A stretch of 64,000 bases of DNA, taken from assembly GCF_001424665.1 (NCBI RefSeq), contig NZ_LMQS01000001.1:621225-685224 (forward strand), read 5' to 3'. Of this stretch, positions 9,795 through 29,014 are shown piece by piece (positions within the stretch are counted from its first letter, which is position 1; every line of letters begins with the position of its first letter). The notes beneath the pieces were generated by a model. That model searched no databases. It saw only the letters and a program-made list of their open reading frames with translations, and was not told where the DNA came from. The stretch is from Methylophilus sp. Leaf416 (lineage in GTDB: Bacteria > Pseudomonadota > Gammaproteobacteria > Burkholderiales > Methylophilaceae). Made by a program: the position numbers and the translations under genes.

Positions 9795-10166
9795 TTATAA
9801 ATCGTGGCAGGACTTGCAGGTACGGGATAACACAGTCGCCTTTTGCCCGGCATGCTCGAAATCACCGGCATCCACCAGGAATTTAATCTCTTTGGTGAGC
9901 TCATGGCTTTTTTGTGCCAGCCCTAACTGCTCGTCAGAATCAGCCTTAAGCGTGTAATAAGACTCCACCTTGGAGAACATGCCTATCAATCTCTGCACGT
10001 CGTCATTGCTGGCTGTCTTGTTATTCAACGCCAAGTGATTAGTCAGGCTTTTGCTGGTATCTTCAACTTCATGCATGAAGTCTTCATCGACTTCAAAATC
10101 CCCTGCTTCTACACTCCAGCTGGCGGCAAGCATGACCGCCAGCATCATGACTACCCGCAAACGCAT
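9795..10166 (-). CDS. Small exported c-type cytochrome-like protein
   Basis: Exported 123-residue protein with a signal peptide (MRLRVVMMLAVMLAASWSVEAG) and a single haem c motif, CKSCH, at the extreme C-terminus. The rest is predicted helical. A helical protein with C-terminal CxxCH resembles cytochrome c-prime or cytochrome c556-type folds, so it is probably a periplasmic electron carrier or gas/ligand-binding haem protein. It shares one base with the stop of the DUF1501 gene, so the two are translated from one mRNA. Family level is uncertain. Only one haem motif is present, and no Met ligand can be assigned with confidence. Confidence 0.65.
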   Translation of the reverse strand: MRLRVVMMLAVMLAASWSVEAGDFEVDEDFMHEVEDTSKSLTNHLALNNKTASNDDVQRLIGMFSKVESYYTLKADSDEQLGLAQKSHELTKEIKFLVDAGDFEHAGQKATVLSRTCKSCHDL

Positions 10167-11620
10167 TATGCCAGCAGTTCATCAATCACCCGGCCATATA
10201 CCACAGTCGGTCTCTCAGAACGTCCATTATTCAGATAGGTTACTTTGAGGTGATCCAGGCCTAACAGATGCAGGACCGTTGCATGGAGGTCATACGTGTC
10301 AACAGCATCATCTTTATTTGTTACCTTCAGGCCAATGGCATCGGTTTCACCATAGGAGGAACCTGCTTTCACACCACCGCCAGCAATCCATTGGGTGTAG
10401 CCAAAGGCATTATGGTCACGACCTGTGCCGCTTTCACTCCAGGGTGAGCGGCCAAATTCTGAAGCCCATACCACCAGCGTACTATCCAGCAAACCACGTG
10501 ATTCGAGGTCAGCCAGCAAACCTGCGACCGGTTTATCCACCATACGTGACATCAGGCCATGGTTGCCGTCCAGGTCATGGTGCGCATCCCAGTCATCGGC
10601 AGAACCTTCCGGCCTGTTATCTGGCGCGGCGGATACCACTTGCACAAACCGTACGCCTCGTTCCACCAGACGACGTGCACGTAACAAGGTAGCGCCATAC
10701 CCTTCACTGGTGTTGTCATCCAGGCCATAAAGGGCTTTGGTAGCAGCGGATTCTCCTTTAAGGTCTACGGCTTCAGGCGCTGTCAGTTGCATACGTTCAG
10801 CCAGTTCATATGACCGTAACCGCGCTTGCAACTCGGTATCATGGGTGTGTCCCAAACCACGCAACCGGTCTAACTGGTTAAGTAAGTCCAGCGAATTTCG
10901 CTGTTGTGAAACTGAGCGCAGTTCGGGGCGATCCAGATAAACAATAGGGGAATCACCAGGACGGAAAGCAGTACCCTGGTACACAGCCGGCAGGAAGCCG
11001 GAACTCCAGTTGACCGAACCGGCATCCGGTTCACGCATGCCGTTGTACAGTACCACATAAGAAGGCAGGTCGCGGTTGGCTGAGCCAAGTGCATAATTCA
11101 CCCAGGCGCCCAGTGAAGGCCGGCCAGGGTTTAAATCCCCGGTATTCAGCTTGAGGATAGAAATATCATGCGTGGCACCCACGGTCACGCTGGAGCGAAT
11201 AAATGCCATCTTGTCGGCCTGACTGGCCATGTTAGGCAGCAGATTTGAAAACCAGGCACCACTGTCACCATGCTGCTTCCAGTCACGGTTGTTAGCCGCA
11301 TACAGTTTGCCTACGCCCCCTTGAGTAAAGGTTTTAAGCCCTCTGAGGAAAGAGGCTGGTACATCTTGCCCGGCCAGCCTAATCAGTTCCGGTTTATAGT
11401 CAAACAAATCGAGTGAGGAAGGCGCACCTTTCATATGCAGCCAGATCACCGACTTCACCTTGCCAGCAAAGTGCGTCGGTTTTGGTGCGAGCGGATCCAC
11501 CAGGTCGGACGCCATGGCCGTCCCAATAAAGCCAACGCCTGGAATAAATCCAGCCGCAGCGGCTGCGCCACCCAGGCCTAAACCGGCATTGATCAAAAAC
11601 TTCCTGCGACTGTCATTCAT
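10166..11620 (-). CDS. DUF1501 family protein, Tat-exported
   Basis: Member of DUF1501, a sulfatase/alkaline-phosphatase-like fold family of unknown activity, 484 residues. The N-terminus MNDSRRKFLINAG followed by a Gly/Ala-rich hydrophobic stretch is a twin-arginine signal, so the protein is folded before export. Core motifs seen are VIWLHMKGAPSSLDLFDYKP near the start, DWDAHHDLDGNHG and VVWASEFGRSPWSE, the metal-site-like regions of the family. A TTG 12 bases upstream is possible, but the ATG has GGGGA at good distance. The gene lies between the DUF1553 gene (60 bp upstream) and the cytochrome-like gene (1-base overlap). DUF1501-DUF1553 pairs are typical of Planctomycetes and some other phyla. 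Confidence 0.85.
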   Translation of the reverse strand: MNDSRRKFLINAGLGLGGAAAAAGFIPGVGFIGTAMASDLVDPLAPKPTHFAGKVKSVIWLHMKGAPSSLDLFDYKPELIRLAGQDVPASFLRGLKTFTQGGVGKLYAANNRDWKQHGDSGAWFSNLLPNMASQADKMAFIRSSVTVGATHDISILKLNTGDLNPGRPSLGAWVNYALGSANRDLPSYVVLYNGMREPDAGSVNWSSGFLPAVYQGTAFRPGDSPIVYLDRPELRSVSQQRNSLDLLNQLDRLRGLGHTHDTELQARLRSYELAERMQLTAPEAVDLKGESAATKALYGLDDNTSEGYGATLLRARRLVERGVRFVQVVSAAPDNRPEGSADDWDAHHDLDGNHGLMSRMVDKPVAGLLADLESRGLLDSTLVVWASEFGRSPWSESGTGRDHNAFGYTQWIAGGGVKAGSSYGETDAIGLKVTNKDDAVDTYDLHATVLHLLGLDHLKVTYLNNGRSERPTVVYGRVIDELLA

Positions 11621-11680
11621 TGTTTTCCCCAAAGCTTAAAAACGTTAATCCTAGAAACTCACATTTAAGGTAATACGGAC

Positions 11681-13996
11681 TTAGAACCTGTATACAAACT
11701 CATTGGTATTCACCAGGCTTTGCACCATATCGACGAAAGCTGCGGTACGTACCGGGTTAAGGTGGCTGGTATCTGCCACACCTATGGGAACGGCGACAGC
11801 AAATCGGCCATCCTTGGCCTGCGTTTTAATGATGTTTTCCTGCTTATTCAGGAAATCCTGCAATGAGGCGCGCTCCTGGTTGCTAGGCAAGCGGGAGAAA
11901 ATCACCTGATACAACCGGTCCAGCTGTGCTTTTTCATTGGTACCGGCTTCATTAATCACACGGCCAGCCAGCGACTGCGACCAGTTGACCACCAGCGGGC
12001 TGTTGAATAAGGTCAACGCCTGCAAGGGGGTAGTGGTGACATCACGTTTGTGATGGGCCTTGGAAGGATCCGCCGGATCAAAATTCTGCAACATCGGATA
12101 GGGCAAGCTGCGTTTACTGTAGATATAGATCGAACGGCGGTTCCAGTCAGATGTAGTTTTTGAAACCGGCCACAGGCGGTTGCCATTCTCATCCACAGGC
12201 CCCTGATCGCCCGCCGTCACAGGCGGCAATACCGATGGGCCGCCTACTTCCTCGTTTAGCACGCCGGCTACATAGAGCAAGGAATCACGGATCACTTCAG
12301 CTTCCAGTCGTTTGCGCGGATAAGTGGCCAGTAATTTGTTTTCCGGATCGACTTTGGCCGCTTCCGGACGCTCTGCTGAAGACTGGCGGTAGACGCTGGA
12401 CAGCAGAATCTGGCGATGCAGTTTCTTGATGCTCCAACCCTGCTCGGTGAAGTTAGTCGCCAGCCAGTCAAGCAGTTCGGGATGCGTAGGTTTGTCGCCG
12501 GCACGCCCAAAATTCTCAGCCGTGGAGATAATGCCGCGGTCAAAGTATTGCGCCCACACGCGGTTGACATATACACGGGCAGTGAGAGGATTTTCCGGGC
12601 TGGCCAGCCAGTTAGCGAGCGCAGTCCTGCGGCCTGAAGAAGCGGCGGTCGGCTTGATGTCGAGTGTGGCATTACCCCACAGCTTTGGCAGGCCTGGCTG
12701 CACAGCTTCGGTTGGCCGCTCATGAATACCACCGAACCGTACAAAGGTCGGTGGGATATCAGTCGCGCTCAGCTCTGTCGCTGCCGTGTAATTTGAGGAA
12801 CCACTGGCAGGTTTCAGGTCATCAAACTTGCGCAATTCTTTCTGCAGGCGCTGGTATTCATCCCACGCAGCCACCTTATCCGGCGTATGCTCCGGATGCT
12901 CCTTGGTTTCAGCCACCAGTTTCAGGTAGCCGGTGCCACCATTCACGCCAGACACAGACTGCCAGCGGAAATTAATCCATTTATCCAGCCCGTTCTGTTC
13001 CTTTTCCGGCTTTTGCAAGGCAGCCAGGGTGTCGGTGATATAGCGCGACTTCTGGTACTGAATGCTGGCATCCTTGTATGGATCCAGCACTTTGCGTTGA
13101 GCATCACGGATATGTTTGGTTGCGGCCTGGTATTTGACAAACTGCTCCACATATTGCTTGTCCCAGACACTTTCAGAACCTTTTGCTAGCTCTTTTTTGG
13201 TATCAAACACCGTGTTGGAGAACACCGATTGGAACTGGAAATACTCTTTCTGACTGATTTTGTCCTGCTTGTGGTTATGGCAACGCGCACATGCCATGGT
13301 GGTGGCCAGGAAAGTCTCGCTCACATTGTCAGCAATATCGGTTTCAATCTGGTATTTGCGCTGTATCATGTCGCGCGAATTGCTGTTATCAGGATAGCCA
13401 GCGAGATAACCCGTGGCGATTTTTGCTTCCTGGCTGTCCGGCCATAATTCATCCCCGGCAATTTGCTCCTTGATAAACAGGTCAAACGGCTTGTCCTGGT
13501 TAAAGGCCGCAATCACATAATCGCGATAGCGCCAGTTATTTGGACGCCCGGCATCATTCTCAAATCCTGCACTATCGGCATACCGCGCCAGATCCAGCCA
13601 GCGACGTGCCTGACGCTCCCCGAAGCGAGGAGATGCCAGCAGGCGATCTACCAGCTTTTCATAGGCGTCAGAAGACCTGTCAGCGGCAAAAGACTTCACC
13701 TCTTCGGGGGTAGGTGGCAAGCCCCAGGCATCCAGGGTAGCCCGGCGGATAAAAGTTACTCGATCAACTTCTACAGCAGGCTTTAACTGTTTACTTTCCA
13801 GCTGCGCCAGAACAAAACTATCGATAGGCGTGCGTACCCATGCTTTTTGCGACACCACCGGCACAGCAGGTTTTTGCGCTGTCTCATAAGGTGACCAGCG
13901 TTTTTCTGTCACTGAATTAGCCGGACTCCCCTCTTCAGCCATTAACGGACCAGCAAATAAGACTGACAGTAAAGCCAGGCACTGTATGTTCTTCAT
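11681..13996 (-). CDS. DUF1549/DUF1553 domain protein (PSD1-like)
   Basis: Exported protein of about 771 residues carrying DUF1549 (N-terminal, from about IDSFVLAQLESKQLKP) and DUF1553 (C-terminal, about residues 470-750, with LANWLASPENPLTARVYVNR). The DUF1549 part has the conserved CARCHNHK sequence, which could attach haem c or bind metal. Planctomycete relatives usually carry an additional N-terminal cytochrome domain (PSCyt1). That domain is absent here; the adjacent small CxxCH protein may supply it in trans. The Sec signal is MKNIQCLALLSVLFAGPLMA. ATG at 13996 has GGAA upstream, and ATG at 14014 is an in-frame alternative. Biochemical function is unknown. Confidence 0.85.
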   Translation of the reverse strand: MKNIQCLALLSVLFAGPLMAEEGSPANSVTEKRWSPYETAQKPAVPVVSQKAWVRTPIDSFVLAQLESKQLKPAVEVDRVTFIRRATLDAWGLPPTPEEVKSFAADRSSDAYEKLVDRLLASPRFGERQARRWLDLARYADSAGFENDAGRPNNWRYRDYVIAAFNQDKPFDLFIKEQIAGDELWPDSQEAKIATGYLAGYPDNSNSRDMIQRKYQIETDIADNVSETFLATTMACARCHNHKQDKISQKEYFQFQSVFSNTVFDTKKELAKGSESVWDKQYVEQFVKYQAATKHIRDAQRKVLDPYKDASIQYQKSRYITDTLAALQKPEKEQNGLDKWINFRWQSVSGVNGGTGYLKLVAETKEHPEHTPDKVAAWDEYQRLQKELRKFDDLKPASGSSNYTAATELSATDIPPTFVRFGGIHERPTEAVQPGLPKLWGNATLDIKPTAASSGRRTALANWLASPENPLTARVYVNRVWAQYFDRGIISTAENFGRAGDKPTHPELLDWLATNFTEQGWSIKKLHRQILLSSVYRQSSAERPEAAKVDPENKLLATYPRKRLEAEVIRDSLLYVAGVLNEEVGGPSVLPPVTAGDQGPVDENGNRLWPVSKTTSDWNRRSIYIYSKRSLPYPMLQNFDPADPSKAHHKRDVTTTPLQALTLFNSPLVVNWSQSLAGRVINEAGTNEKAQLDRLYQVIFSRLPSNQERASLQDFLNKQENIIKTQAKDGRFAVAVPIGVADTSHLNPVRTAAFVDMVQSLVNTNEFVYRF

Positions 13997-14273
13997 TGTT
14001 TTTATTTCCATCATCAGGTAAATGTTAGAAAACGCACCGTATCGGTTACGACACCATTACATCGGCTACAGGGGATATAGCAAACGCTATACCAGATGAT
14101 AAAAATGCTTACATCACATAACTTATTGCAATAGAAACAATGAGATAAGGATTACTAAAGGCAGGCCGGGAGATAAGAAAAATAATTTAACAAAAGAAAA
14201 TTTGTTTTAAATAAAACAGTAGGCTGTTGCAGCAACAACAGCTTAAAAATCCAGATCAGCAAAAAATACCAAC
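13997..14273. other. Intergenic region upstream of DUF1553 gene
   Basis: AT-rich gap that should hold the minus-strand promoter of the DUF1553-DUF1501-cytochrome operon. A short hairpin (GCTGTTG / CAACAGC, about 14224-14242) sits beside the terminator of the response-regulator operon. I see no gene. Confidence 0.4.
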
Positions 14274-14394: not shown

Positions 14395-15327
14395 CTAGAA
14401 TTTAATTTTTGAAGCGACCAGCGAAGCGGCAGCTGTCCTGGTTTCCACCCCGAGTTTCTGGAACACGTGTTCAAGATGTTTATTGATAGTGCGCGGGCTG
14501 GTACCCAGGATCTCACCAACGTCCTTATTGGTTTTGCCCTTGACTGTCCAGTAAAGCACTTCTGATTCACGTTTGGTGAGCTGGAATACCTTACCCAGTG
14601 ATTCAATCTGCAGTTCGTCCGAGTGCTCGCGCAGCACGATTACCCATTGCTCTTCACTGGTATTGGCTACCGTGAGGCTGAGCCGCGCACTGCCTTGATT
14701 AACATTCAAGGTTTGCATGGTTTGCTTGGCGGAAAATTGCTGTACACAGTTTTCCAGCCATTGATAAATCATGGGTGGCAAAGTCTGCACTGCGCTGTAA
14801 GCCTCTTTGGCTACCCATTCGGCGAAATACTGTTCCAGGTATTGCTTGGCTAAAGGCGTTTGCCAGACCAGCCGTTTATCCGCAGGTAGAATGGCTATCG
14901 TGGCCTGGCCAAAGGCATCCAGGGCAGAAGTGGCCTGATGCATTTTTGTGGCATTCTGCACATGCGCTTTCACACGGGCCAACACTTCCGCCGGACGCAC
15001 GGGCTTGGTCACATAATCCACGCCACCGGCGTCAAACGCCATGGTGACGTGTTCAATTTCAGTCAGGCCGGTCATGAAAATCACCGGGATATGCTGGGTT
15101 TCGGCGGTGGCCTTGATGCGCCTGCAGGTGGCAAATCCATCCAGGCCAGGCATCATCGCATCCATCAGGATCACATGCGGCTGCATCAGGTGGGCGACCT
15201 GCAAGGCCATTTCACCTGAATTGGCGACACAGACCTGATAGCCAGACTCATCCAGGGCATCATGCAGATAAGCCAGGTTTTCCGGCACATCATCTACAAT
15301 CAACACGGTATAGTTTGGGTTGGTCAT
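14395..15327 (-). CDS. LuxR-type response regulator of the NCS1-kinase system
   Basis: Transcription factor of 310 residues. The N-terminal receiver domain (about 5-125) has the acidic pair D12-D13, phospho-acceptor D56, T86 and K108. A middle segment (about 130-235) resembles no domain I can name. The C-terminal NarL/FixJ helix-turn-helix runs from LTKRESEVLYWTVKGKTNKD (about 248) to the recognition helix SPRTINKHLEHVF. Its ATG overlaps the kinase stop codon (ATGA), so the pair is translationally coupled and almost certainly cognate. Position at the end of the urea/formamide gene run suggests it controls those genes. The shared TACG-N8-CGTA dyads are candidate sites. Confidence 0.9.
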   Translation of the reverse strand: MTNPNYTVLIVDDVPENLAYLHDALDESGYQVCVANSGEMALQVAHLMQPHVILMDAMMPGLDGFATCRRIKATAETQHIPVIFMTGLTEIEHVTMAFDAGGVDYVTKPVRPAEVLARVKAHVQNATKMHQATSALDAFGQATIAILPADKRLVWQTPLAKQYLEQYFAEWVAKEAYSAVQTLPPMIYQWLENCVQQFSAKQTMQTLNVNQGSARLSLTVANTSEEQWVIVLREHSDELQIESLGKVFQLTKRESEVLYWTVKGKTNKDVGEILGTSPRTINKHLEHVFQKLGVETRTAAASLVASKIKF

Positions 15328-18300
15328 TTTGCATCCTCAATCAAGCGTTGCAGTGTAGCAAAATCAAAGCGGTCTATGGCTTGTTGCAGAGCGTTAATCA
15401 ATGTTTGATGATGTGAATATTTTTGCGCCAATGTCGCAAGTACTTCTCGCGCACCTTTTACATAGCCGACCTTGGCATACTGCATCAGGTTTTCCATTAA
15501 TTCTGCCGGAATAGCGGGGGCGTCTTTTGGAACTGGTATCGCCTGAGCGTCTGACAGCAGTAACTGGGTCTCTTTGTTGCTATCTACATACCGCCAGACC
15601 AGGCCCAGGCGGTGCCCTACCCAATCCAGCACTTCGTCCAGATTCACCGGTTTAACAAAGAAATCCTGTGCCGGTATTTTGGCCTGGTTATCCAGGCTGC
15701 GGTCGTAGGCATTGGCAGACACAATCGCGATAGGAATCTGCGAGTGATGCACCTCGCGGATAATATAAGCGGCTTCCCAGCCATCCATCACCGGCATCGC
15801 CAGATCCATCAAGATCAAATCAGCTTTCACTGTCCGATACTGATTTACACAAGCCTGGCCATTGGCCGCCTCATGGATAATAAACCCCAGTGGCTGCAAG
15901 GTATCCCGCAACAACTCTCTATCGACTTCTTCATTATCCACCACCAGAATAGTGCGGGGCGAGCCTTCGTAGCCGGTACGTTGCCTGACCGCCTGTTTGG
16001 ATAAATGCGCAGTCTCGCGGATTTGCGGTAAAAACAACCGGATGTCAAAACGTGTGCCATACCCAACCACGCTGTCGAAATGAATTTCACCACCCATCAG
16101 TTGCGTTAACAGCTTGCTGATCGTCAAACCCAAGCCAGTGCCCCCAATGCCGACCACATTCGCTGCACTGCCCCGCTCAAATGGCTCAAAGATTTTCTCA
16201 ACCTCATTCGGAGCAATACCGGGGCCGGTATCCTGAATTTCAATCTGTGCAATTTCACGTGCGTAGCTGATGCGGAAAATCACACTACCCTTGGTGGTAA
16301 ATTTCACCGCATTACCGAGGATATTTACCAATATCTGCATCAGGCGCTTGTGGTCTGCACGCACATATTCGGGCAAGGTGCCGCTCTGTTCAAACTTGAA
16401 AGTCAGGCCTTTATTTTGTGCCTGGATTTCAAACATACTCACCATATGGCTGATGAATTCGGGAAAATGCAGTGGCTTCACATCAAACGCCATTTTGCCA
16501 CTTTCAATACGCGCGATATCCAGCGTACTCTCAATCAGTGACAGCAAATGCTCACCGCCACGGCTGATGGTTTTGATTGCCTGTTTACGATGCGCAGGGA
16601 TACTGTCATCGTTAGTCAATAATTGGGCATAGCCAAGAATGCTATTGAGTGGCGTGCGCAATTCATGGCTGATGCCGGTAATGTAACGGCTCTTGGCCTG
16701 GTTAGCCTCTTCAGCCAAGCGGCGGGCTTTTTGCAATTGGGTATCGGTTTTTTTATGAGATTCAATCTCTTCCAGCAACAGGCCTGTCTGCCGGTTGGAT
16801 TCTTCCTGTGCGACGCGGCGGCTGGCAGAAGTCAGCACCAGCCACCAGGCCACAATGCCGCCCAAAAACAGCAATGCAACAAACACCTTGAGATAGCCAG
16901 AGCGGAAGCGTGCCATCAGTTCAGGATACTGCTGCCCTATGGTCAATGAATCATGCAGGTAAATCAAGCTGATGGTCGCGCCAAATAACAGCATGGCTAT
17001 CACCATCAGCAACAAGAAGTGCGCCACACCACCGTTAAGATGTGGCCAAAAGCGCTTTGGCAGGATTTTTCTATTGACTGCTTCCCACTGCGCACTTAAC
17101 CGTGCCTGCGGTTTACAGGCATCATGACATCTTGCGTCCAGGCAGCAGCATAAGGAGCAGATCGCGCCGCCATATGCCGGGCAATGCGCCATATCGCTGA
17201 CTTCATATTCACGTTCACAAATCACACATTGCTTGGTCGCTGAAGGTTGCAGATAGATCGGGCGCTGCCTGGCCAGGTAATACTTGCCTTTGGTATACCA
17301 GGCAATCAGCGGCGATAGAAGCATCGCGGTAAATAATGAAATAAAAGTAGAAAAGGATTGCGCTACTACACCCATGACACCGGTGTAAGCCGCAATCGAA
17401 ATCGCCGATGCAATAAACATGGCCCCCACGCCAACCGGGTTGATGTCATATAGATAAGCACGGCGGAATTCAATGCCTTTCGGGCTTAACCCGAGCGGTT
17501 TATTAATGACCAGATCAGCAACCACTGCAGCAATCCAGGCAATGGCAATATTGGCATACAGCCCGAGGATTTCTTCCAGTGCCTGGAACACATTCAGCTC
17601 CATCAGCACAATGGCAATCATCACGTTGAAGGCTACCCAGACGATACGCCCTGGATGGCTATGGGTGAGCCGCGCAAAAAAATTAGACCATGCCAGTGAG
17701 CCGGCATAGGCATTGGTCATATTGACCTTGATTTGCGACACACAGACAAATAAGGCCGTGATTGCCAGCGCAATGTCGTGATTGCTGAACACATGCTCAA
17801 AACCAACCAGATACATGTGCGTCGGGTTGACCGCAGAGCTGATTGGCATATTCCGAGTAAATACCAGGTAGGCTAACAAAGCCCCTGCCAGCATTTTGAG
17901 CATGCCGAGAATGACCCAACCGGGGCCAGCCATTAATACACCAATATTCCAGCGCCAGTAATTTTCTTTAGTTCTCGCCGGCATAAAGCGCAAAAAGTCG
18001 ACTTGCTCACCAACCTGCGGAATCAGCGCCACACCAACAGCGGTCGCCGCACCAAACATCAACCAGTTGAAATGCCCACCATTGGTGGATGTCCCGGCAA
18101 AATTACTTAGCCTGTGCAACACATCGGGATCCGCATGCAGAATCGCAAAAAATGGCAGGAACATCAGCGCGATCCAGATCGGCTGAGTGATCATCTGGAT
18201 GCGGCTGATCAGGGTCACGCCATGTGTGACTAACGGAATGACAATCAGTGCGCTGACCAGGTAACCCAGGTATAGCGGCAAATGGAAATAGAGCTCAAGC

Positions 18301-18758
18301 GCATAGCCCATAATCGCCGCTTCCAGCGAAAACAGGATAAAGGTGAACGAGGCATAAATAAAAGACGATATCGTCGAGCCGATATAACCAAATCCGGCGC
18401 CGCGGGTCAGCAGATCCATATCCAGCCCATATTTGGCCGCGTAATAGCTGATAGGCAGACCGGTCAGGAAGATAATCGCGCCGACAGCCAAAATCGCCCA
18501 TAAGGCATTGGGGAAACCGTAATTAATGGTGATTGTGCCGCCAATCGCTTCCAGCACCAGGAAAGAAATGGCGCCCAACGCAGTATTGGATACCCGTAAA
18601 ATGGACCATTTGCGAAAGGCACGCGGCGTGTAGCGCAGCGCATAATCCTCAATCGTCTCGTTCGCTACCCAATTGTTATAGTCGCGACGAATCTTGACGA
18701 TACGCTGTATCGGTTCGGCAGTAATTTCGCTAGCTAATCCGGGAGACGGCGTAGACAA
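15324..18758 (-). CDS. Chimeric NCS1-type permease / hybrid sensor histidine kinase
   Basis: Inner-membrane sensor of 1144 residues. Residues about 45-490 are a complete purine-cytosine-permease-like (NCS1) transporter with about 12 helices. Residues 511-548 are a cysteine-rich module (C511-x2-C514, C526, C534-x2-C537-C538-C539, C544, C548), likely metal-binding. Two further membrane segments lie near 576-600 and 623-645, then a short coiled coil, HisKA with phospho-acceptor H698 (GISHELRTPLN), HATPase (N-box about 813, DTGPGIAP, GGTGLGLTI), a receiver with D985, and a helical C-terminal tail. The start is TTG with AAAGGG 7 bases upstream. The transporter part probably senses a nucleobase, allantoin or urea-like ligand. 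This is analogous in concept to CbrA, whose transporter domain is of SSS type. Confidence 0.9.
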   Translation of the reverse strand: MSTPSPGLASEITAEPIQRIVKIRRDYNNWVANETIEDYALRYTPRAFRKWSILRVSNTALGAISFLVLEAIGGTITINYGFPNALWAILAVGAIIFLTGLPISYYAAKYGLDMDLLTRGAGFGYIGSTISSFIYASFTFILFSLEAAIMGYALELYFHLPLYLGYLVSALIVIPLVTHGVTLISRIQMITQPIWIALMFLPFFAILHADPDVLHRLSNFAGTSTNGGHFNWLMFGAATAVGVALIPQVGEQVDFLRFMPARTKENYWRWNIGVLMAGPGWVILGMLKMLAGALLAYLVFTRNMPISSAVNPTHMYLVGFEHVFSNHDIALAITALFVCVSQIKVNMTNAYAGSLAWSNFFARLTHSHPGRIVWVAFNVMIAIVLMELNVFQALEEILGLYANIAIAWIAAVVADLVINKPLGLSPKGIEFRRAYLYDINPVGVGAMFIASAISIAAYTGVMGVVAQSFSTFISLFTAMLLSPLIAWYTKGKYYLARQRPIYLQPSATKQCVICEREYEVSDMAHCPAYGGAICSLCCCLDARCHDACKPQARLSAQWEAVNRKILPKRFWPHLNGGVAHFLLLMVIAMLLFGATISLIYLHDSLTIGQQYPELMARFRSGYLKVFVALLFLGGIVAWWLVLTSASRRVAQEESNRQTGLLLEEIESHKKTDTQLQKARRLAEEANQAKSRYITGISHELRTPLNSILGYAQLLTNDDSIPAHRKQAIKTISRGGEHLLSLIESTLDIARIESGKMAFDVKPLHFPEFISHMVSMFEIQAQNKGLTFKFEQSGTLPEYVRADHKRLMQILVNILGNAVKFTTKGSVIFRISYAREIAQIEIQDTGPGIAPNEVEKIFEPFERGSAANVVGIGGTGLGLTISKLLTQLMGGEIHFDSVVGYGTRFDIRLFLPQIRETAHLSKQAVRQRTGYEGSPRTILVVDNEEVDRELLRDTLQPLGFIIHEAANGQACVNQYRTVKADLILMDLAMPVMDGWEAAYIIREVHHSQIPIAIVSANAYDRSLDNQAKIPAQDFFVKPVNLDEVLDWVGHRLGLVWRYVDSNKETQLLLSDAQAIPVPKDAPAIPAELMENLMQYAKVGYVKGAREVLATLAQKYSHHQTLINALQQAIDRFDFATLQRLIEDAK

Positions 18759-18866: not shown

Positions 18867-18882
18867 TACGTTAATTGACGTA
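18867..18882. promoter_or_regulatory. TACG-N8-CGTA dyad upstream of the kinase gene
   Basis: On the minus (coding) strand it reads TACGTCAATTAACGTA, 109 bp before the kinase start codon. It differs at two of 16 positions from the dyad upstream of fmdC (33337-33352). In both promoters the motif is followed after exactly 22 bases by TTAAT, a plausible -10 core. NarL/FixJ-type regulators often bind such symmetric sites, so autoregulation by the downstream response regulator is a reasonable inference. Confidence 0.6.
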
Positions 18883-18975: not shown

Positions 18976-19539
18976 TCAGGCAATCAGCCAGTAAGCGCCC
19001 AAGCCCATCATCATGCCGCCCAGCAATTGCGTAGTGGCTTTTAGCCACGGCTGTTGCTGGCGACCCAATATCCAACCCAGGCCATGCAGCGTGGCTGTTG
19101 CCAGCACCATGCCAGTTAATGAACTCCAGCTTTGGCCAAGCTCAACACCATGCACATAACCATGCGCAGCCGCTACCAATCCCACCAGGCTAAACTGCGC
19201 CCATTTAGATAATTCCACTTTTGCAATCAGTAAACCACCCATCACCAGCACACTTGCCGCCACCATGACTTCCGCCAGTGACATCGGCAACCACACCATC
19301 GCCAGTGCCGCGAACACTGCCATCACACTGACAAACAACACTGGTAATTGCCAGCCCTGTTGCGTCTGGCGACGTGCTGCCCAGATACCTAAGGACAACA
19401 TTACCAGCAGATGATCCCATCCGGTCAGTGGATGTAAAAAGCCAGTTGCGAACCCCGCCTGTAAGTCATGTCCAGGATGCGCGTATGCCACACCCGATAA
19501 CACACTAGCCCCGATACCTAAAAGAATACTTTTTTTCAT
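18976..19539 (-). CDS. ureJ: HupE/UreJ family membrane protein, probable nickel permease
   Basis: Small inner-membrane protein (187 residues, six or seven hydrophobic helices) of the HupE/UreJ family, thought to supply nickel for urease or hydrogenase. A signal-like first helix ends in YAHPGHD, a His-rich probable metal site. FLHPLTGWDHLLVML (HP-x(4)-DH) is the family signature. A second histidine cluster is AAHGYVHGVELG. The GTG at 19554 gives five extra residues, but the ATG at 19539 has GGAGAAG at ideal distance and is preferred. It is the last gene of the urease run, separated from ureG by a Correia-like repeat. No hydrogenase genes are nearby, so a urease role is favoured. Confidence 0.88.
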   Translation of the reverse strand: MKKSILLGIGASVLSGVAYAHPGHDLQAGFATGFLHPLTGWDHLLVMLSLGIWAARRQTQQGWQLPVLFVSVMAVFAALAMVWLPMSLAEVMVAASVLVMGGLLIAKVELSKWAQFSLVGLVAAAHGYVHGVELGQSWSSLTGMVLATATLHGLGWILGRQQQPWLKATTQLLGGMMMGLGAYWLIA

Positions 19540-19597
19540 AGAATCTTCTCCCACAGAATTGTAACTATTTATTTAGCTCGCCCATGATCATCTACTT

Positions 19598-19701
19598 AAA
19601 GCTGAACGCTGCTTGTTTGTGGCAAGGCGCATGAGCGCAGACAGTACAAATAGTACGGCAAGCCCATGCAACACCGCCACAGACAGGCAGCGTTCAGCTT
19701 T
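19598..19701. repeat. Correia-like palindromic repeat, copy 1
   Basis: A 104-bp element is bounded by perfect 15-bp inverted arms (19598-19612, AAAGCTGAACGCTGC; 19687-19701). Its right end overlaps the ureG stop codon. A 59-bp core (19621-19679) matches copy 2 at 49 of 59 positions. The core contains GCAGACAGTACAAATAGTAC, which strongly resembles, from memory, the interior of the neisserial Correia element. It lies between ureG and ureJ in the mRNA. Confidence 0.75.
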
Positions 19702-20353
19702 ATTGCATGAGGCCTTGTTTTTCGATGAAGGAGACAATCTCCTCCAGCCCCTGCCCACTCTTCAGGTTACTGAAAATAAACGGTTTTTCACCTCGCATGC
19801 GTTTTGCATCCTGATCCATCACTTCCAGCGAAGCGCCAACCATAGGCGCCAGGTCAATCTTGTTGATCACCAGCAAATCAGACTTGGTAATGCCCGGGCC
19901 GCCCTTGCGCGGGATTTTCTCACCGGCGGCTACGTCGATCACATAAATCGTCAGGTCAGATAGCTCAGGGCTGAATGTTGCCGCCAGGTTATCGCCACCG
20001 CTTTCGACAAACACAATATCCAGCGTCTGGAAGCGTTTACTTAACTGATCCACCGCTTCCAGGTTCATGGAGGCATCTTCACGAATCGCCGTATGCGGAC
20101 AACCGCCGGTTTCCACGCCGATGATACGCTCAGGCGATAACGCCTCGTTGCGCGTCAGGAATTCGGCATCTTCCTTGGTATAGATATCGTTAGTCACCAC
20201 GGCAATGTTGTACAGCTCACGCAAACGCTGGCAAAGCGCAAGTGTTAAAGCCGTTTTACCGGAACCGACCGGGCCACCAATGCCGATACGCAAAGGCTCT
20301 TTGTACTCGGTAACCGCGGGGGTGGGTGTTTCAAATTGGGTATGTATTTTCAT
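19700..20353 (-). CDS. ureG: Urease accessory GTPase UreG
   Basis: SIMIBI-class GTPase that couples GTP hydrolysis to nickel delivery into urease with UreD, UreF and UreE. It has 217 residues, the usual length. The P-loop is [13 protein letters not shown] (about residues 26-38). The CPH nickel motif is in [17 protein letters not shown], the switch region is [17 protein letters not shown], and NKIDLAP is the guanine-specificity motif. The ATG overlaps the ureF stop (ATGA), so translation is coupled. All catalytic landmarks are intact. Confidence 0.97.
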
Positions 20354-21033
20354 GATCTGAATAATCTACTGTATTGCGTTTCGTGTTGGCAGCCGGCAAT
20401 GCTGAGTAACGGGTTAAAGTTGCTCATGGCATCATCCGGCAATTGCATAGCGGCCTCTATCACTTGTGGCAAGCGCTCTCCCAAGCTAAGCAGGATGGTC
20501 TGCCCGGCCACCTGACCAAGCGGCACCGCTTTCATGGCAGCGCTGGCCTGATTTTCCAGCCAGCCCCAGATATAACCATGCAGCAGCTGTTCAGCCGGAA
20601 TTTGCCAATGCTGGGCAATGGCTGCATACAAAGTCGGGAAAGATGGTGATTCCAGTGCGTTAATCTGTGCCACCAATGCGGGCGACATGGGCTTGAGGTC
20701 ATTCAGCAGTCGCCGCAGGGAGTAGCCCATTTGCCGTGTCTCTGCCCATCCTTCAGCGGTGTCCCGCCCTGCCTGGTAAAACATGTCCCACTCTTGCACT
20801 GCGACTAAATCCTGTGCCTGCCAGGCCTGGTATAAACGGTACAGCACCGGCAATTCAAAACGGGCCTGATAAATCTGCAAACTGTCGCCTATCCAGGCTT
20901 GTGCGGTTGCAACACTGGTAACTTCACCCGATTCAATCGCCCATTCCAGTCCTTGCGAATAGCCATAAGCACCGACTGGCAACAACGGGCTAGCCAATTG
21001 CAGCAAGCGACTGAGTGCCAGGGCATTAACCAT
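20350..21033 (-). CDS. ureF: Urease accessory protein UreF
   Basis: Nickel-metallocentre assembly protein that bridges UreD-urease and UreG. All-helical, 227 residues from the ATG at 21033 ([27 protein letters not shown]). That beginning matches the normal family N-terminus, whereas the longer open frame back to 21123 would only add residues read from inside ureE. ureE and ureF overlap by 8 bp, and ureF and ureG by 4 bp. Family motifs [35 protein letters not shown] and the C-terminal [11 protein letters not shown] are clear. Confidence 0.95.
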
Positions 21034-21514
21034 GCGCACGTCCACTATTTTTTGGTCGTAACGAATGCAAGGCATCTTCCCCATGGCGATGACCGCCACC
21101 GTAAGCGCCGGCTTCCGGCTCAAAAGGCGCGTTAACCTCGCTCACCTGCATGCCTAACCCCAACAGCATATCTCTCAGCACATAATCCTGCTCCAGGCGT
21201 AACCAGCCATCGCCAATTTGCAATGGCACGTGACGGTTACCTAAATGATAGGCTGCACACATCAGGTCGCGAGGTGTAGGTGCAATGACGTTATAGACCG
21301 GCTCTTGCGCTGCCACAATCTGGACGACCAGGCCATTCTCAGACTTGAGTAGATCGCCACCACGCAGGATGATGCCCCGGGTTAAAAACAATGCCGCTTC
21401 GTTGCCCGAAGCCAATTTCACGCGCAGGCGACTTTTCTGCCGCAGGTCAAAAGGCAGTTCCAGTGTGTCGTCTATATGACCACTGACAGTAATACGTTCG
21501 GTGAGATGAATCAT
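21026..21514 (-). CDS. ureE: Urease accessory nickel chaperone UreE
   Basis: Dimeric nickel metallochaperone that hands Ni(II) to UreG, 162 residues. The N-terminal half has the peptide-binding domain (TLELPFDLRQKSRLRVKLASG). The metal-binding half has YHLGNRHVPLQI, whose central histidine is the conserved Ni ligand at the dimer interface. The C-terminal tail (GGGHRHGEDALHSL) is only modestly His-rich, unlike the long poly-His tail of Klebsiella UreE, so Ni storage capacity is probably low. The end overlaps ureF. Confidence 0.95.
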   Translation of the reverse strand: MIHLTERITVSGHIDDTLELPFDLRQKSRLRVKLASGNEAALFLTRGIILRGGDLLKSENGLVVQIVAAQEPVYNVIAPTPRDLMCAAYHLGNRHVPLQIGDGWLRLEQDYVLRDMLLGLGMQVSEVNAPFEPEAGAYGGGHRHGEDALHSLRPKNSGRAHG

Positions 21515-21600
21515 TTTTATCTTTTATAAACTCAGTTCCATCAATGAGCGAGCGGGATAAAGTACAAAGTGCCCGGAACGATGCAATTTGCCCACATTGA

Positions 21601-23304
21601 TCAGAATAAAAAGTAGCGTTGTGCCATAGGCAACACTTCCGCCGGTTCACAGACCAAGGGCATGCCATCAGCAAGCACTTCATAAGTTTCGGGATCGACG
21701 TCGATCTTGGGTAACCAGGTGTTATGCACCATGTCGGATTTTTTAACGTCACGTGTACCTTTGACAGCGACTAGTGTTTTTTGCAACCCCAGTGCCTTCA
21801 GTTCAGGATTTTCCAGCCCGGCTTGCGAAACAAAGGTCACTGCCGTTTTCAAGCCACCGCCATACGCGCCAAACATGGGACGGTAATGCACGGGTTGCGG
21901 GGTTGGAATGGAAGCATTGGGGTCACCCATTGCAGCCGCCGCAATCATGCCGCCCTTAATAATGGTAAAAGGCTTCACCCCAAAGAATGCCGGTTTCCAG
22001 ACCACCAGGTCAGCCAGTTTGCCCACTTCAACAGAACCGACCACATGCGAGACACCGTGCGTAATGGCAGGATTGATGGTGTATTTGGCTATATAGCGCT
22101 TGATACGGAAATTATCATTACCAGCTGTGTCTTCCGCCAGTGGTCCACGCTGAATTTTCATCTTATGCGCGGTTTGCCAGGTGCGGATAATTACTTCACC
22201 AACTCGCCCCATGGCCTGTGAATCAGACGACATCATCGAGAAGGCGCCAAGGTCATGGAATATATCTTCCGCAGCAATTGTTTCGCGGCGGATACGGCTT
22301 TCGGCAAACGCGATATCTTCTGCAATTGCAGGATCCAGGTGATGACAGACCATCAGCATATCCAGATGTTCGTCGATGGTATTAACGGTAAATGGTTTTG
22401 TTGGATTAGTAGAGGAAGGCAATACATTCGGATAGCCAGCCGCCTTGATAATATCCGGCGCATGGCCGCCACCCGCCCCTTCGGTATGGAACGTATGGAT
22501 GGTGCGGCCCTTGAACGCACCAATAGTAGTCTCAACAAAGCCTGATTCATTCAGGGTATCCGAATGAATGGCAACCTGCACATCCATTTCGTCAGCGACG
22601 CTCAGGCAATTATCAATGGCTGCCGGTGTGGTTCCCCAGTCTTCGTGCAATTTAAGCCCGATCACACCCGCCCGTACTTGCTCACGCAGTGGTTCAGGCA
22701 AACTCACGTTCCCCTTACCCAGAAAACCCAGGTTCATGGGGAAAGCATCTGCGGCCTGCAACATACGATGGATATGCCATGGTCCTGGTGTACAGGTAGT
22801 GGCGAAAGTGCCAGTCGCCGGGCCGGTACCGCCACCAATCATGGTGGTGACGCCGGACATCAATGCTTCTTCGATCTGTTGCGGGCAAATAAAATGGATA
22901 TGCGTATCAATACCGCCTGCAGTAATGATCATGCCTTCACCGGCAATGACTTCAGTACCTGCGCCCACTGCAATTGTGACGCCGGGCTGGATATCAGGAT
23001 TGCCTGCCTTGCCGATGGCAGAAATATAACCACCTTTGATACCAATATCGGCTTTAACAATACCCCAGTGATCAATAATCAATGCATTTGTAATCACGGT
23101 ATCAGCAACTTCAGCTGCCAGGCCTTGCCCCTGGCCCATGCCATCGCGGATCACTTTGCCGCCGCCAAACTTCACTTCCTCGCCATAGATGGTGAAGTCT
23201 TTTTCGACCTCCACCCACAACTCGGTATCCGCCAACCTTACCTTGTCACCGACAGTCGGGCCGAACATTTCAGCATAGGCGCGTTTATCCATTTTCACTG
23301 TCAT
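21601..23304 (-). CDS. ureC: Urease alpha subunit, catalytic
   Basis: Catalytic subunit of nickel urease (urea + H2O to 2 NH3 + CO2), 567 residues, full length. Active-site residues all appear present: H135 and H137 (DTHIHF), carbamylated K218 (GLKLHEDWG), H247, H273 ([14 protein letters not shown]), flap C320-H321 (MVCHHLDP) and D361 ([12 protein letters not shown]). It assembles with UreA and UreB encoded just upstream. The order D-A-B-C-E-F-G is the common one. It is 37 bp after ureB and 86 bp before ureE. Confidence 0.98.
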
Positions 23305-23341
23305 TGTTTTTCCTTATTGCTCTGACTTTATTGCTCGCCTG

Positions 23342-23650
23342 CTATTTCAGGGCGCCCATGACTTTACCGGCAAAGCCGTAGACTTCACGCTTGCCCACCA
23401 GTTTGACCAATTGCACTGTACGCGTCTGGCCTGGTTCAAACCGCACCGCCGTCCCCGCCGCAATATTCAAGCGGGCACCGTAAGCTAAAGCCCGGTCAAA
23501 AGACAACGCTTCATTCGTCTCATAAAAATGATAATGTGAGCCGACCTGGATCGGCCGGTCACCCGTGTTCGCCACATCCAGCGTCACCGTTTCACGCCCT
23601 GTGTTTAATTCGATGTCGCCTGCTGCGACCTGCATTTCGCCAGGAATCAT
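23342..23650 (-). CDS. ureB: Urease beta subunit
   Basis: Small structural subunit of the three-subunit bacterial urease, 102 residues. The family start [16 protein letters not shown] and the [10 protein letters not shown] strand are clear. It is separated from ureA by an unusually long 161-bp gap filled by the second Correia-like repeat, whereas ureA and ureB are often only a few bases apart. That may alter the A:B expression ratio. Confidence 0.96.
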
Positions 23651-23714
23651 TAATTACTCCAGTCGTTTCTTACTTTATTTTCAAACATTATTTCTCTGCA
23701 TATTCAGGCGTGGA

Positions 23715-23802
23715 GTTGCAAGCGTGGAGGGCAAGGTGCACAACCGCAGACAGTACAATAAGTACGGCAAGGATAAGCAACACCGCCATCTGCGCTTGCA
23801 AC
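23715..23802. repeat. Correia-like palindromic repeat, copy 2
   Basis: Inverted arms GTTGCAAGCG (23715-23724) and CGCTTGCAAC (23793-23802) enclose a core (23730-23788) that matches copy 1 at 49 of 59 positions. The arm sequences differ from copy 1 yet pair with each other, so the hairpin rather than the arm sequence is conserved. It lies between ureA and ureB within the urease transcript. Confidence 0.75.
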
Positions 23803-23811
23803 ATCGAGCCC

Positions 23812-24114
23812 TTATGGAATCGGGTGGTGGACGGTGACTAGCTTCGTCCCATCCGGGAATGTTGCCTCTATCTGGATATCCGGAATCATCTCCGGCACCC
23901 CTTCCATCACTTCATCACGTGCCAGCAAAGTCGTGCCATAACTCATCAGTTCCGCCACCGTTTTGCCGTCCCGCGCCCCTTCCATGATCGCCGCGGAAAT
24001 AAAAGCGACGGACTCAGGATAATTCAGCTTCAAACCACGTGCCTTGCGCCGCTCGGCCAACAGAGCGGCGGTGAAAATCAATAATTTATCTTTTTCTCTT
24101 GGGGTTAATTCCAT
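23812..24114 (-). CDS. ureA: Urease gamma subunit
   Basis: Smallest urease structural subunit, 100 residues, all of standard length. [14 protein letters not shown] at the N-terminus, [21 protein letters not shown] and the C-terminal [13 protein letters not shown] are diagnostic. It follows ureD by 64 bp. Confidence 0.97.
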
Positions 24115-24178
24115 AAGCGGCTAATTCCATAAATGGTGAGCTACGTAGACAAATGCTCTTTGACTATTTCTTTGGCGA

Positions 24179-25048
24179 TCAGGTATTCCAGATACGTGGC
24201 CTGATGGCGTCTTTTTGATAATACCACGGCCTTAAAATCTGCCAGCAATGCTCAAAGTATTGCCTGGCCTGCTGCGATGCATTACCAATATAACGGATAC
24301 ACAGCACATCAGGTAAGGCTGTGATACCTACGTTGGCATTTGATAACACTATCTCACGGCAGGCTTGTAACAATTCGGCAGGTACAGCGCCTGCACATAC
24401 CAGAAAGGTGCCGAATACCGCTGCACCCCCCAAACCAACTCGACTGGTCTTGACCAGGTCATCCGCCTGCATGCGCGCACGCTCGTTCCAGATCAATCTA
24501 CCATTTCGAGTGATACGCTGATTTAATTGGTAAAAACCAGTTTGCCAGATTTCCTGTTGCGCCTGGCGGCCAAGGCAAACGATATCCCACGCCGCCAAAG
24601 TGGCATCTGCTGCCAGCGCTATCTCTGCAGAAAAACCTACTTCTGCAGCATCAAATAAAATATTTTCCTGTGGCAACCATTCTAGGCCACTGCCTGCCGC
24701 CAATTGAAAGGTGAGCGTTTGTGTCGCTTTGGTACCATTGGCCTTGTACCACTTGCCTGCACCAGGCGTCGTCAACAAGGCTCTTGCACCTTCTCCGACT
24801 TGTACCTGTAAATGCAGTGCGTCGCCACCTGCCACCCCACCGGGAGGATGCACCACTACCGCATGACAGATATCTTCGCCTTCAGGATGCAGGCTTTTCT
24901 GAACAACCAATGGTCCATGATGCAGACGATGTGCCAGGTAAGAGCGTGCATCACGCCTGGCGAAGCCAAGCTCAAGCCTTGCTTGCCAGTGTTTTGTGGC
25001 AGTGAGCTTTAAGGGTGGCGATACGATCGCAGGCTTTAAATCATCCAT
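24179..25048 (-). CDS. ureD: Urease accessory protein UreD
   Basis: Scaffold that binds apo-urease and forms a nickel tunnel with UreF, 289 residues. Family landmarks are LLTTPGAGKWYK, LEWLPQENILFDAAE and WDIVCLGR. It is the first gene of the urease block. A long imperfect palindrome separates it from urtE upstream (125-bp gap), so transcription may either read through or restart here. I see no sharp promoter. Confidence 0.95.
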   Translation of the reverse strand: MDDLKPAIVSPPLKLTATKHWQARLELGFARRDARSYLAHRLHHGPLVVQKSLHPEGEDICHAVVVHPPGGVAGGDALHLQVQVGEGARALLTTPGAGKWYKANGTKATQTLTFQLAAGSGLEWLPQENILFDAAEVGFSAEIALAADATLAAWDIVCLGRQAQQEIWQTGFYQLNQRITRNGRLIWNERARMQADDLVKTSRVGLGGAAVFGTFLVCAGAVPAELLQACREIVLSNANVGITALPDVLCIRYIGNASQQARQYFEHCWQILRPWYYQKDAIRPRIWNT

Positions 25049-25173: not shown

Positions 25174-25863
25174 CTAAACAGACAAATAGCTTTTCACCTT
25201 GGCAGCATCGACATTATCGCGGGTATCTTCATGAATAAAGCGGCCTTTATCAATCACGATAATACGGTCAGCCACTTCCATCGTGAAACTCAACACCTGC
25301 TCTGAAACAATGATGGTGATTTCACGCATTTTGCGGATTTCGTTCAATACCCTGGCAATATCCTTGATGATAGAAGGCTGAATCCCTTCGGTTGGCTCAT
25401 CCAGCAATAACACTTTAGGATTAGTCACCAGCGCACGGGCAATCGCCAGTTGCTGTTGCTGACCACCAGACAGGTTACCGCCCTTGCGCTTGCGCATTTC
25501 ATGCAGCACGGGGAACAAGGCAAAAATATCATCGGGGATCTCGCGGCTGGAAGATTTCTCCAACCCGGTTTCGATATTTTCCTGCACCGTCATGTTAGGG
25601 AAAATCCAGCGGCCTTGTGGTACATAAGCCAGGCCCTTCATCACTCGATCATGCGTAGCGGCACCTTGCAGATCCACGCCGTCCACAGTGGCCTTGCTGG
25701 ATTTGCTAGGCAAAATACCCATCAATGACTTGAACAAGGTCGTTTTACCCATACCATTGCGGCCCATAATCGCCAGGGTTTCGTTTTTATTGGCTTTGAA
25801 GTTCAGGCCATGAATCACCTGGCTTTGGCCATAACTCACCTGCAAATTCTCAATTTCAAACAT
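25174..25863 (-). CDS. urtE: Urea ABC transporter ATPase UrtE
   Basis: LivF-like ATP-binding subunit of the urea importer, 229 residues. Walker A GRNGMGKTTLF (about 34-44), signature NLSGGQQQQLAIARAL, Walker B VLLLDEPTEGIQPSII and the switch region (VSEQVLSF) are present. LSGGQQQ and EPTEGIQPSI are typical of UrtE rather than of amino-acid LivF. It works with UrtD on the UrtB-UrtC membrane pair. Confidence 0.95.
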   Translation of the reverse strand: MFEIENLQVSYGQSQVIHGLNFKANKNETLAIMGRNGMGKTTLFKSLMGILPSKSSKATVDGVDLQGAATHDRVMKGLAYVPQGRWIFPNMTVQENIETGLEKSSSREIPDDIFALFPVLHEMRKRKGGNLSGGQQQQLAIARALVTNPKVLLLDEPTEGIQPSIIKDIARVLNEIRKMREITIIVSEQVLSFTMEVADRIIVIDKGRFIHEDTRDNVDAAKVKSYLSV

Positions 25864-25874
25864 GCTGTGCTCCT

Positions 25875-26618
25875 CTAATGGCCTAGATATACTTCAATGA
25901 CTTTTTCGTCAGCTTGCACTTTTTCCATCGGCCCTTCGGCCAGGATTTTGCCTTGGTGCAGTACAGTGACCTTGTGTGCGATTTTCTTGACGAATTCCAT
26001 GTCGTGCTCGATCACAATCACTGACCTGTTCTGGCAAATGCGGTTAAGCAACTCAGCCGTCTGGTCGCGTTCTTTTGCACTCATGCCAGCGACTGGTTCA
26101 TCCAGCATCAGCAACTCCGGCTCCTGCATCAGCAGCATGCCAATCTCCAGCCATTGTTTCTGGCCGTGGCTGAGCAAAGCTGATTCCATATCCAGGAACT
26201 CGGTCAGCATAATGTCTTCTGCTACCTTGCGTACCCGGTCTTCCACTTCCTGTGTACGTTTGAAAGTCAGGCTGCCAAACACGCCACGGCCTTTCGGGTA
26301 AGAAACTTCCAGATTCTGGTACACAGACAGATTTTCATAAATCGATGGATTCTGGAATTTACGGCCTACCCCTGAGCGTACGATTTCGTGCTCAGAGAGC
26401 TTGGTCAATTCGGTATTGTTAAACTTGATCGACCCGGCGGTAGATTTGGTTTTACCGCAAATCAGGTCAAGCACCGTGGTTTTTCCGGCACCGTTAGGGC
26501 CCACCAGTACACGCAGTTCATTTTTGTCGATATACATGGTCAAGCTATCCACTGCTTTAAAGCCATCGAAGGAGACGGTCAAATCTTCTACTGCCAAGAC
26601 GAAGTCGGTGTTACTCAT
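25875..26618 (-). CDS. urtD: Urea ABC transporter ATPase UrtD
   Basis: LivG-like ATPase subunit of the urea importer, 247 residues. Walker A is GPNGAGKTTVLDLICGKT. The signature region reads LLSHGQKQWLEIGMLL, with HGQ replacing SGGQ, a known UrtD trait. Walker B is ELLMLDEPVAGMSAKE. The ATG overlaps the urtC stop (ATGA), and urtE follows 11 bp later. Confidence 0.95.
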   Translation of the reverse strand: MSNTDFVLAVEDLTVSFDGFKAVDSLTMYIDKNELRVLVGPNGAGKTTVLDLICGKTKSTAGSIKFNNTELTKLSEHEIVRSGVGRKFQNPSIYENLSVYQNLEVSYPKGRGVFGSLTFKRTQEVEDRVRKVAEDIMLTEFLDMESALLSHGQKQWLEIGMLLMQEPELLMLDEPVAGMSAKERDQTAELLNRICQNRSVIVIEHDMEFVKKIAHKVTVLHQGKILAEGPMEKVQADEKVIEVYLGH

Positions 26619-27901: not shown

Positions 27902-27969
27902 GATTTCTCCTCTGTTGATGCGTTGATTCTATTGCGGCAGGGCAAAACACTTAATACGTTCATTTACTT

Positions 27970-28006
27970 ATGGCAACGCGTGGGAAACCTGTTCACACGT
28001 TGCCAT
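27970..28006 (-). promoter_or_regulatory. Intergenic hairpin between urtB and urtC
   Basis: Arms 27970-27982 and 27994-28006 pair over 13 bp (ATGGCAACG / CGTTGCCAT plus GTG / CAC, with one wobble in the minus-strand RNA) around an 11-nt loop. There is no T-run, so it is more likely an mRNA-stability or processing element than a terminator. Confidence 0.6.
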
Positions 28007-28013
28007 CACCCTT

Positions 28014-28931: not shown

Positions 28932-28989
28932 ACAGGTCTCCTTGAAACTTAAAAAACACACACTAATGGGATTGAATACTTGCGCTAAA

Positions 28990-29014
28990 CGGTAGCCGGC
29001 AAAACCGGCTACCG
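28990..29014 (-). promoter_or_regulatory. Strong hairpin after urtA
   Basis: CGGTAGCCGG and CCGGCTACCG (perfect 10-bp arms, loop CAAAA) lie between urtA and urtB. No T-run follows on the minus strand. Such a stem after a binding-protein gene typically protects the upstream message from 3' exonucleases, giving much more UrtA than permease. That role is inferred. Confidence 0.7.

Follow-up and report, generated by a model that had tools for sequence, protein, structure and literature searches.

In the genome of Methylophilus sp. Leaf416, a transporter-like protein is joined to a histidine kinase next to genes for the use of urea and formamide, and this locus raises the question of what such a kinase senses and which genes it controls. 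We considered it in a window of 64,000 nucleotides (the whole stretch of DNA that was analysed, to which all coordinates refer) and in related loci of other genomes. In many bacteria, the kinase lies next to genes for urea and formamide use, which it probably switches on when such compounds are present.

Architecture and distribution of the fusion

The kinase gene is a single intact frame of 1144 codons on the minus strand (15327-18758, stop codon at 15324-15326), with a TTG start codon, just 5' of which lies AAAGGG; five of the compared relatives have a TTG at the equivalent position. Its product comprises, in order and all from the minus strand, a permease domain (residues 37-494; 17277-18650) assigned by Foldseek and by a profile-profile match to PF02133 proteins, a cysteine module (residues 511-548; 17115-17228) with eight conserved cysteines and C539, a pair of additional membrane helices (residues 577-645 approximately; 16824-17030) and a kinase part (residues 688-1045; 15624-16697). 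Pfam recognises HisKA (688-754), HATPase_c (802-910) and Response_reg (937-1045) in the kinase part, where H698 and D985 are the phospho-acceptors assigned by motif; with a HisKA domain carrying its histidine, an HATPase_c domain and a receiver carrying its aspartate, the protein belongs to the hybrid histidine kinases. Residues 1-687 have no Pfam match, SSF included, and no HPt motif was recognised in the C-terminal 99 residues past the receiver. An AlphaFold2 model of 676 residues (pLDDT 81.6, pTM 0.80) places the permease helices at about 53-488 and the extra helices at 577-606 and 612-675, the second extending into the kinase linker. Pfam thus bears out the HisKA, HATPase and receiver domains proposed in the original prediction, and hydropathy and the model agree with its two further membrane helices. 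The kinase stop codon overlaps, as ATGA, the start of a gene encoding a receiver and a LuxR-type helix-turn-helix (14395-15327, minus strand; Pfam), which by its domains and its place is the likely cognate regulator.

The joining of a permease to a kinase, which could have been a frameshift, a chimera or an assembly joint, is real: the frame is open throughout and colinear homologues recur in genomes of the family, the order and the phylum, so that these artefacts are ruled out. Among 61 close genomes (the own genome and 60 relatives; 37 from the family and 24 others from the order), the fusion is present in 25 of the 37 family members, the copies of G006 and G018 being truncated, and in 2 of the 24 genomes from elsewhere in the order. 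A phylum-wide sample of 398 genomes gave 57 fusion sites (E < 1e-200) in 52 genomes; 54 of these frames exceed 1100 codons, the remaining three having 894, 899 and 1026 codons, and two of the 57 contain one stop each. The closest named relative among the matches listed is a Methylophilus protein (L030, 92%), and the kinase is also found in 530 plasmid records, of which 342 are from Klebsiella. The view that such a fusion is much less described than other transporter kinases therefore holds for its function, of which no study was found in the full-text literature searched, but not for its architecture, which is common in databases.

Shorter members of about 870-900 codons also exist (L027 9920-12541, G151:C3 and G255:C2), whose receiver may be missing or encoded separately; the short Paracoccus member (L027) is followed by two regulator genes. 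On a Klebsiella plasmid (L022 8897-18369), the genes of the sensor kinase and formamidase lie together with urtEDCBA on one island, which adjoins an IS1 transposase, clpK and arsenic genes.

The permease domain and the cysteine module

The five best PDB matches of the model, using Foldseek, are CodB and Mhp1, and profile-profile comparison with two PF02133 proteins gave a probability of 96.3 (E 1.9e-9), rising to 100 once intermediates were included. From these fold and profile matches, the permease domain as modelled is of the NCS1 fold. CodB and Mhp1, which share this fold and profile kinship, differ in being plain cytosine and hydantoin transporters without a kinase or a cysteine module. 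The kinship is distant: PF02133 did not exceed its gathering score in the window protein, in 14 relatives or in the own genome (HMMER), a sequence search of the PDB with the window protein gave no significant match, and one stand-alone relative matched the NCBIfam cytosine permease model at E 2.9e-4, far below its cut-off. The "nucleobase-type" transporter originally proposed thus stands as to its NCS1 fold but not as to its ligand, in view of the missing PF02133 match and of the neighbourhoods read, none of which contained nucleobase genes.

CodB residues taken from PMC9379551 were mapped onto 72 relatives (row L021b, kept for the tree, was left out here) through an alignment of less than 20% identity, at which level the TM6 aromatic of CodB corresponds to Leu in 70 of 72 and the TM3 aromatic to Phe (57 relatives) or, as in the window protein, to Leu (15). 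The Na2 hydroxyl pair is replaced by Lys-Ile/Val in all 72, on a manual ungapped reading of TM8 and not on that of the aligner, and Q248, E251 and Q252 are invariant. In a comparison set of seven further NCS1-like proteins, an aromatic stands at the TM6 position in one and Arg or Lys at the K344 column in six, which weakens the residue argument against nucleobases; the changes appear to mark an outlying branch and would neither exclude a ring ligand nor name the ligand. Taking the gene neighbourhoods described below into account, the ligand is probably urea together with short-chain amides such as formamide and acetamide.

The nine cysteines that had been noticed in a 38-residue segment are all present (residues 511-548), and eight of them are invariant in the 72 aligned relatives; the ninth, C539, is not a conserved part of the module, as this position holds Thr in 41, Ser in 18 and Cys in only 13. 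When the module was searched alone in the 398 phylum genomes, all 57 sites at E < 1e-19 fell inside the 57 fusion frames, next to 11 weak matches (E >= 5e-4) in frames of 28-100 codons, which suggests that the module is confined, in these genomes, to this permease clade. It has no Pfam match; modelled alone, it reached a pLDDT of 70.2, and its fold search returned a list mostly of RING, PHD, FYVE and LIM domains with a non-significant best E of 0.47.

Permeases of the same clade also occur without a kinase, in urease operons, beside FmdA or beside an aliphatic amidase, and those with such neighbours are candidate urea and amide transporters. A Streptomyces copy has no urease, formamidase or amidase neighbour. 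Six stand-alone copies that do have such neighbours (L023 9950-11557, L177 8956-10563, L179 9013-10689, L180 8953-10641, L181 8926-10569 and L021 10150-11793) are annotated as allantoin permease, cytosine permease or hypothetical protein. The pore-lining motifs SQIKxNxTNAY (TM8) and GEQxD are kept equally in the fused and the stand-alone forms. In the tree, a single change is needed between the two forms and the stand-alone rows lie on one side (support 91/98), the position of the root being unsure because of long branches. In Acinetobacter baumannii, a stand-alone permease adjoins the kinase gene in divergent orientation, an arrangement that we take to resemble UhpC and UhpT, where a sensor derived from a transporter likewise stands next to a paralogous transporter. 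In that system the sensor, UhpC, is an MFS protein of its own, whereas here the sensor and the kinase form one chain.

The tails of the stand-alone forms vary. The Methylovirgula permease ends in a tail with all eight cysteines; those of Acinetobacter, Moraxella and a Klebsiella-labelled record keep only Cys 511, 514, 534 and 537, that of Streptomyces has these four and 526, and those of Arthrobacter and Tsukamurella have one or two unpaired cysteines. The retention of 511/514/534/537 where the other four are lost suggests that the eight cysteines form two Cys4 sites, one of 511, 514, 534 and 537 and the other of 526, 538, 544 and 548, consistent with the paired conserved cysteines, in one or two sets of four, of zinc fingers, and these sites probably hold zinc.

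Linkage to urea and amide genes and a shared palindrome

On the same strand and 5' of the kinase gene, the order of transcription is an FmdC-like porin (32077-33249; without Pfam match, and presumably FmdC in view of its position), the formamidase FmdA (30813-32045; PF03069), an FmdB-like zinc-ribbon protein (30421-30759), the urea/amide ABC transporter urtABCDE (25174-30278; UrtA over the TIGR03407 cut-off) and ureDABCEFG with ureJ (HupE/UreJ; 18976-25048; UreC over its cut-off). The fmdCABDEF cluster of Methylophilus methylotrophus has the same order of porin, formamidase, FmdB and transporter, and formamide and urea are described as its inducers (PMC10781810). The proximity of urt-like transporters to amidase genes had already been noted in PMC3098086, and a genome paper mentions a hybrid kinase and a LuxR regulator beside a second urtABCDE, in a passage that takes them no further (PMC13296017). 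An Rfam match to 5_ureB_sRNA (22866-23151, plus strand, 118.9 bits), antisense inside ureC, is probably mere shared urease coding sequence. On the other side of the regulator gene, three genes (9795-14014, minus strand) encode what we take to be planctomycete-type cytochrome/DUF1501/DUF1553 proteins, here in a methylotroph.

The urea/formamide setting, and the fusion beside urt and ure genes elsewhere, were both confirmed. Among the best 80 of at least 597 matches in genome contigs, a set biased toward relatives, the fetched flanks of 67 loci contain ure, urt or fmd/ami genes (ure alone in 32, ure with urt in 17, urt alone in 12 and urt with fmd/ami in 6), many of the urt matches being merely 35-47% identical, so that these may be other ABC transporters; the regulator gene lies directly downstream of the kinase in 69 of the 80. 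Linkage to urea or amide genes holds for 48 of the 56 loci with full flanks. Thirteen of the 80 loci have no such genes nearby, eight of them with full flanks (Azonexus, Denitromonas, three of Zoogloea, two Rhodocyclaceae and a Curvibacter), and amide genes were absent among ten neighbours from three of these eight. As a control, only 1 of 76 other hybrid kinases among the matches listed, from genomes that have ure, fmd or urt genes, has UreC, FmdA or UrtA within 10 kb, whereas 21 of 27 members of the fusion family do.

On annotated plasmids, the kinase is divergent from urtABCDE-formamidase in Klebsiella, from ureA in Mitsuaria, from an ABC transporter-FmdA-FmdB-amidase cluster in Burkholderia vietnamiensis and from FmdA-FmdB in Methylovirgula; it is close to urt in Sinorhizobium and Methylosinus and close to FmdA in Paracoccus. 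Within the family, whose genomes are related and not independent, urease alpha accompanies the kinase in 25 of 25 genomes (partial in G018 and G019) and exceeds its cut-off in 0 of 12 without it, FmdA is present in 21 of 25 against 1 of 12, and UrtA in 25 of 25 (under its cut-off in G018 and G019) against 1 of 12 over the cut-off. Urease does not need the kinase, since 8 of the 24 order genomes (G038, G041, G046, G051, G052, G053, G058 and G059) have urease over the cut-off and no such kinase.

The fmdC and kinase promoters share a palindrome, TACG-N8-CGTA, which we propose as a predicted operator (33337-33352 before fmdC and 18867-18882 before the kinase gene). With at most one mismatch, TACGNNAATTNNCGTA is found only at these two places in the 64-kb window, and none of 100 shuffles had two; the exact form is found nowhere else in the genome. 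These counts are post hoc, the pattern having been derived from the same two sites and tested elsewhere later, and a reversed control occurs three times in the genome, so that the bare genome count carries no meaning. In the genome-wide counts generally, the pattern does not outnumber its reversed control, and a looser pattern was rarer than its reversed control in genomes (five further genomes and four plasmids were examined); it is therefore the place of the sites, not their number, that is evidence.

Among Methylophilaceae loci, 24 of 26 have the dyad before the kinase gene; among the other loci, 10 of 76 do (mean of the shuffles 0.02, maximum 1), a count that leaves out L069 as well as L060, L074, L089, L096 and L105, which have no usable upstream sequence. 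The ten are Acinetobacter, Klebsiella, Burkholderia, Methylosinus, Methylovirgula, Methylophaga, Stutzerimonas, two Pseudomonas and an uncultured Burkholderiales; the dyad is missing from the other 66, including most urease-linked Burkholderiales. It is absent from the kinase bodies and, before the kinase, at spacings of 6, 7, 9 and 10. Before fmdC, all 19 relatives whose sequence extends far enough have it. Outside the family, the complete cluster occurs in Methylophaga, with the dyad at both promoters. In G043, two dyads lie between urtA and the kinase, and G039 has none. Two other palindromes, AAGA-N11-TCTT and AGGT-N7-ACCT, were rejected, as in the one locus read they recur in the divergent ureA coding region, and CTGCG-N8-CGCAG of Burkholderiales was set aside as it lies in the kinase coding sequence.

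A scan of 32 genomes gave 33 sites in 15 genomes, of which 26 lie at fmdC or the kinase by coordinates (that of G018:C354 being assumed) and four of the other seven precede amiE by about 218 bases, in as many sister genomes (L203 941-956, L204 8915-8930, L205 955-970 and L207 863-878). In one case checked by Pfam, the operon encodes AmiE, a periplasmic protein and an AmiR-ANTAR protein, and a terminator-like hairpin, seen by eye in two genomes, lies in the amiE leader downstream of the dyad, as expected for AmiR antitermination. Of eight genomes with an amiC-like gene, five have the exact dyad there, two (including the own genome) a copy with one mismatch and one has none.

Proposed signalling path, alternatives and known systems

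We propose, with a probability of roughly 55%, that the protein is a transceptor-type hybrid kinase that senses urea or short amides and drives its own regulon through the predicted operator. The divergent NCS1-fold permease domain would change conformation on binding or moving urea or a short amide, and the shift would be transmitted through the cytosolic, probably zinc-holding, two-Cys4 module and the two extra helices to the kinase. Phosphate would then pass from H698 to the LuxR-type regulator encoded next door, a direct transfer being expected where no HPt motif is recognised after the receiver, with D985 of the internal receiver as a sink or checkpoint, that is, a brake. The regulator would bind TACG-N8-CGTA and activate both the kinase gene and the fmdC-fmdA-fmdB-urt-ure cluster, as well as amiE in sister genomes; levels of the porin, the ABC transporter, formamidase and urease would rise, and so would those of amidase in genomes that have it. 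We infer the ligand, the metal, the order of phosphotransfer, the DNA binding and the activation from what was computed, namely the architecture, conservation, fold match, gene linkage and palindrome distribution. A broader proposal, on which we are evenly divided, is that an NCS1-derived clade shifted from nucleobases to urea and short amides and comprises stand-alone permeases and kinase-fused sensors, with a Cys8 linker not seen elsewhere and a TACG-N8-CGTA regulon on chromosomes and Klebsiella plasmids.

An unlikely alternative keeps the same regulon and makes the permease domain a scaffold or flux reporter, the cue being internal (ammonium or nitrogen status) or set by another transporter, for instance Urt or a permease without a kinase. 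High ammonia is indeed described as also repressing the M. methylotrophus cluster (PMC10781810), but the pore-lining motifs, kept alike in both forms, would be needless in a mere scaffold. It is somewhat less probable that another regulator, such as FmdB or a nitrogen regulator, binds the palindrome while the kinase and its partner regulator act on something else: for M. methylotrophus, FmdB has been described as a putative positive regulator (PMC10781810), and G005 has the dyad before fmdC although the kinase was not found in its 88%-complete assembly, yet the dyad precedes the kinase gene in Acinetobacter, Klebsiella, Burkholderia, Pseudomonas, Methylosinus, Methylovirgula and Methylophaga, and fmdB is not among the genes listed for the Klebsiella locus.

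We consider it improbable that the protein senses a nucleobase, allantoin or hydantoin and is linked to urea because urea is their end product. The NCS1 fold, the allantoin or cytosine permease annotation of relatives and the Phe that most relatives have for the TM3 aromatic of CodB would suit such a ligand, as opposed to the formamidase and amidase neighbours, which do not fit a purine pathway, and to the Leu that replaces the TM6 aromatic, a residue which is itself rare in the NCS1-like comparison proteins. Very improbable is the suggestion in the original prediction that the cysteine module itself senses nickel, another metal or redox and gates the kinase: urease is a nickel enzyme, UreJ adjoins the kinase gene and the eight cysteines are invariant in the 72 relatives compared, but urease-linked stand-alone relatives lack four of them, two stand-alone relatives linked to amidase or formamidase lack nearly all, and 18 of the 80 kinase loci have urt or fmd/ami genes and no urease gene in the fetched flanks.

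Returning to the proposed sensor of urea and short amides, its kind is already known, and the likeness to CbrA-type kinases held up. CbrA, CrbS and RpuS also combine a LeuT-fold transporter and a kinase in one chain (PMC13022988, PMC5715377, PMC9100948), CrbS likewise being a hybrid kinase, but these SLC5-STAC kinases have an SLC5 domain and a STAC linker in place of the NCS1 domain, cysteine module and two helices, and their cues relate to histidine, acetate and pyruvate use. The window protein falls outside this group, with no SSF match and NCS1 as its best fold, STAC being judged only by the absence of a match. Ks-Amt5 joins a transporter domain to a histidine kinase with a nitrogen cue, though its Amt domain has another fold and another ligand (PMC5764959). 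The ammonia sensor GrtK/GrtR was set apart by its description, its regulator having a Fis-type, NtrC-like helix-turn-helix (PMC12918730). No functional study of an NCS1-kinase fusion and no described sensor of external urea or formamide were found in the literature searched. What is new here is the palindrome before fmdC, the kinase gene and amiE.

For urea and formamide use, the analysis puts forward a candidate sensor with its ligand class, together with a predicted operator and a regulon. If the proposal is right, NCS1 would join the few transporter families known in kinase fusions, a new specificity would be suggested inside a structurally known transporter family, and the paired paralogs would allow the passage from transporter to receptor to be tested. 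The window also encodes, at 46706-48175 on the plus strand, an unfused sodium:solute symporter (PF00474) of the same family as the transporter domain of the CbrA-type kinases.
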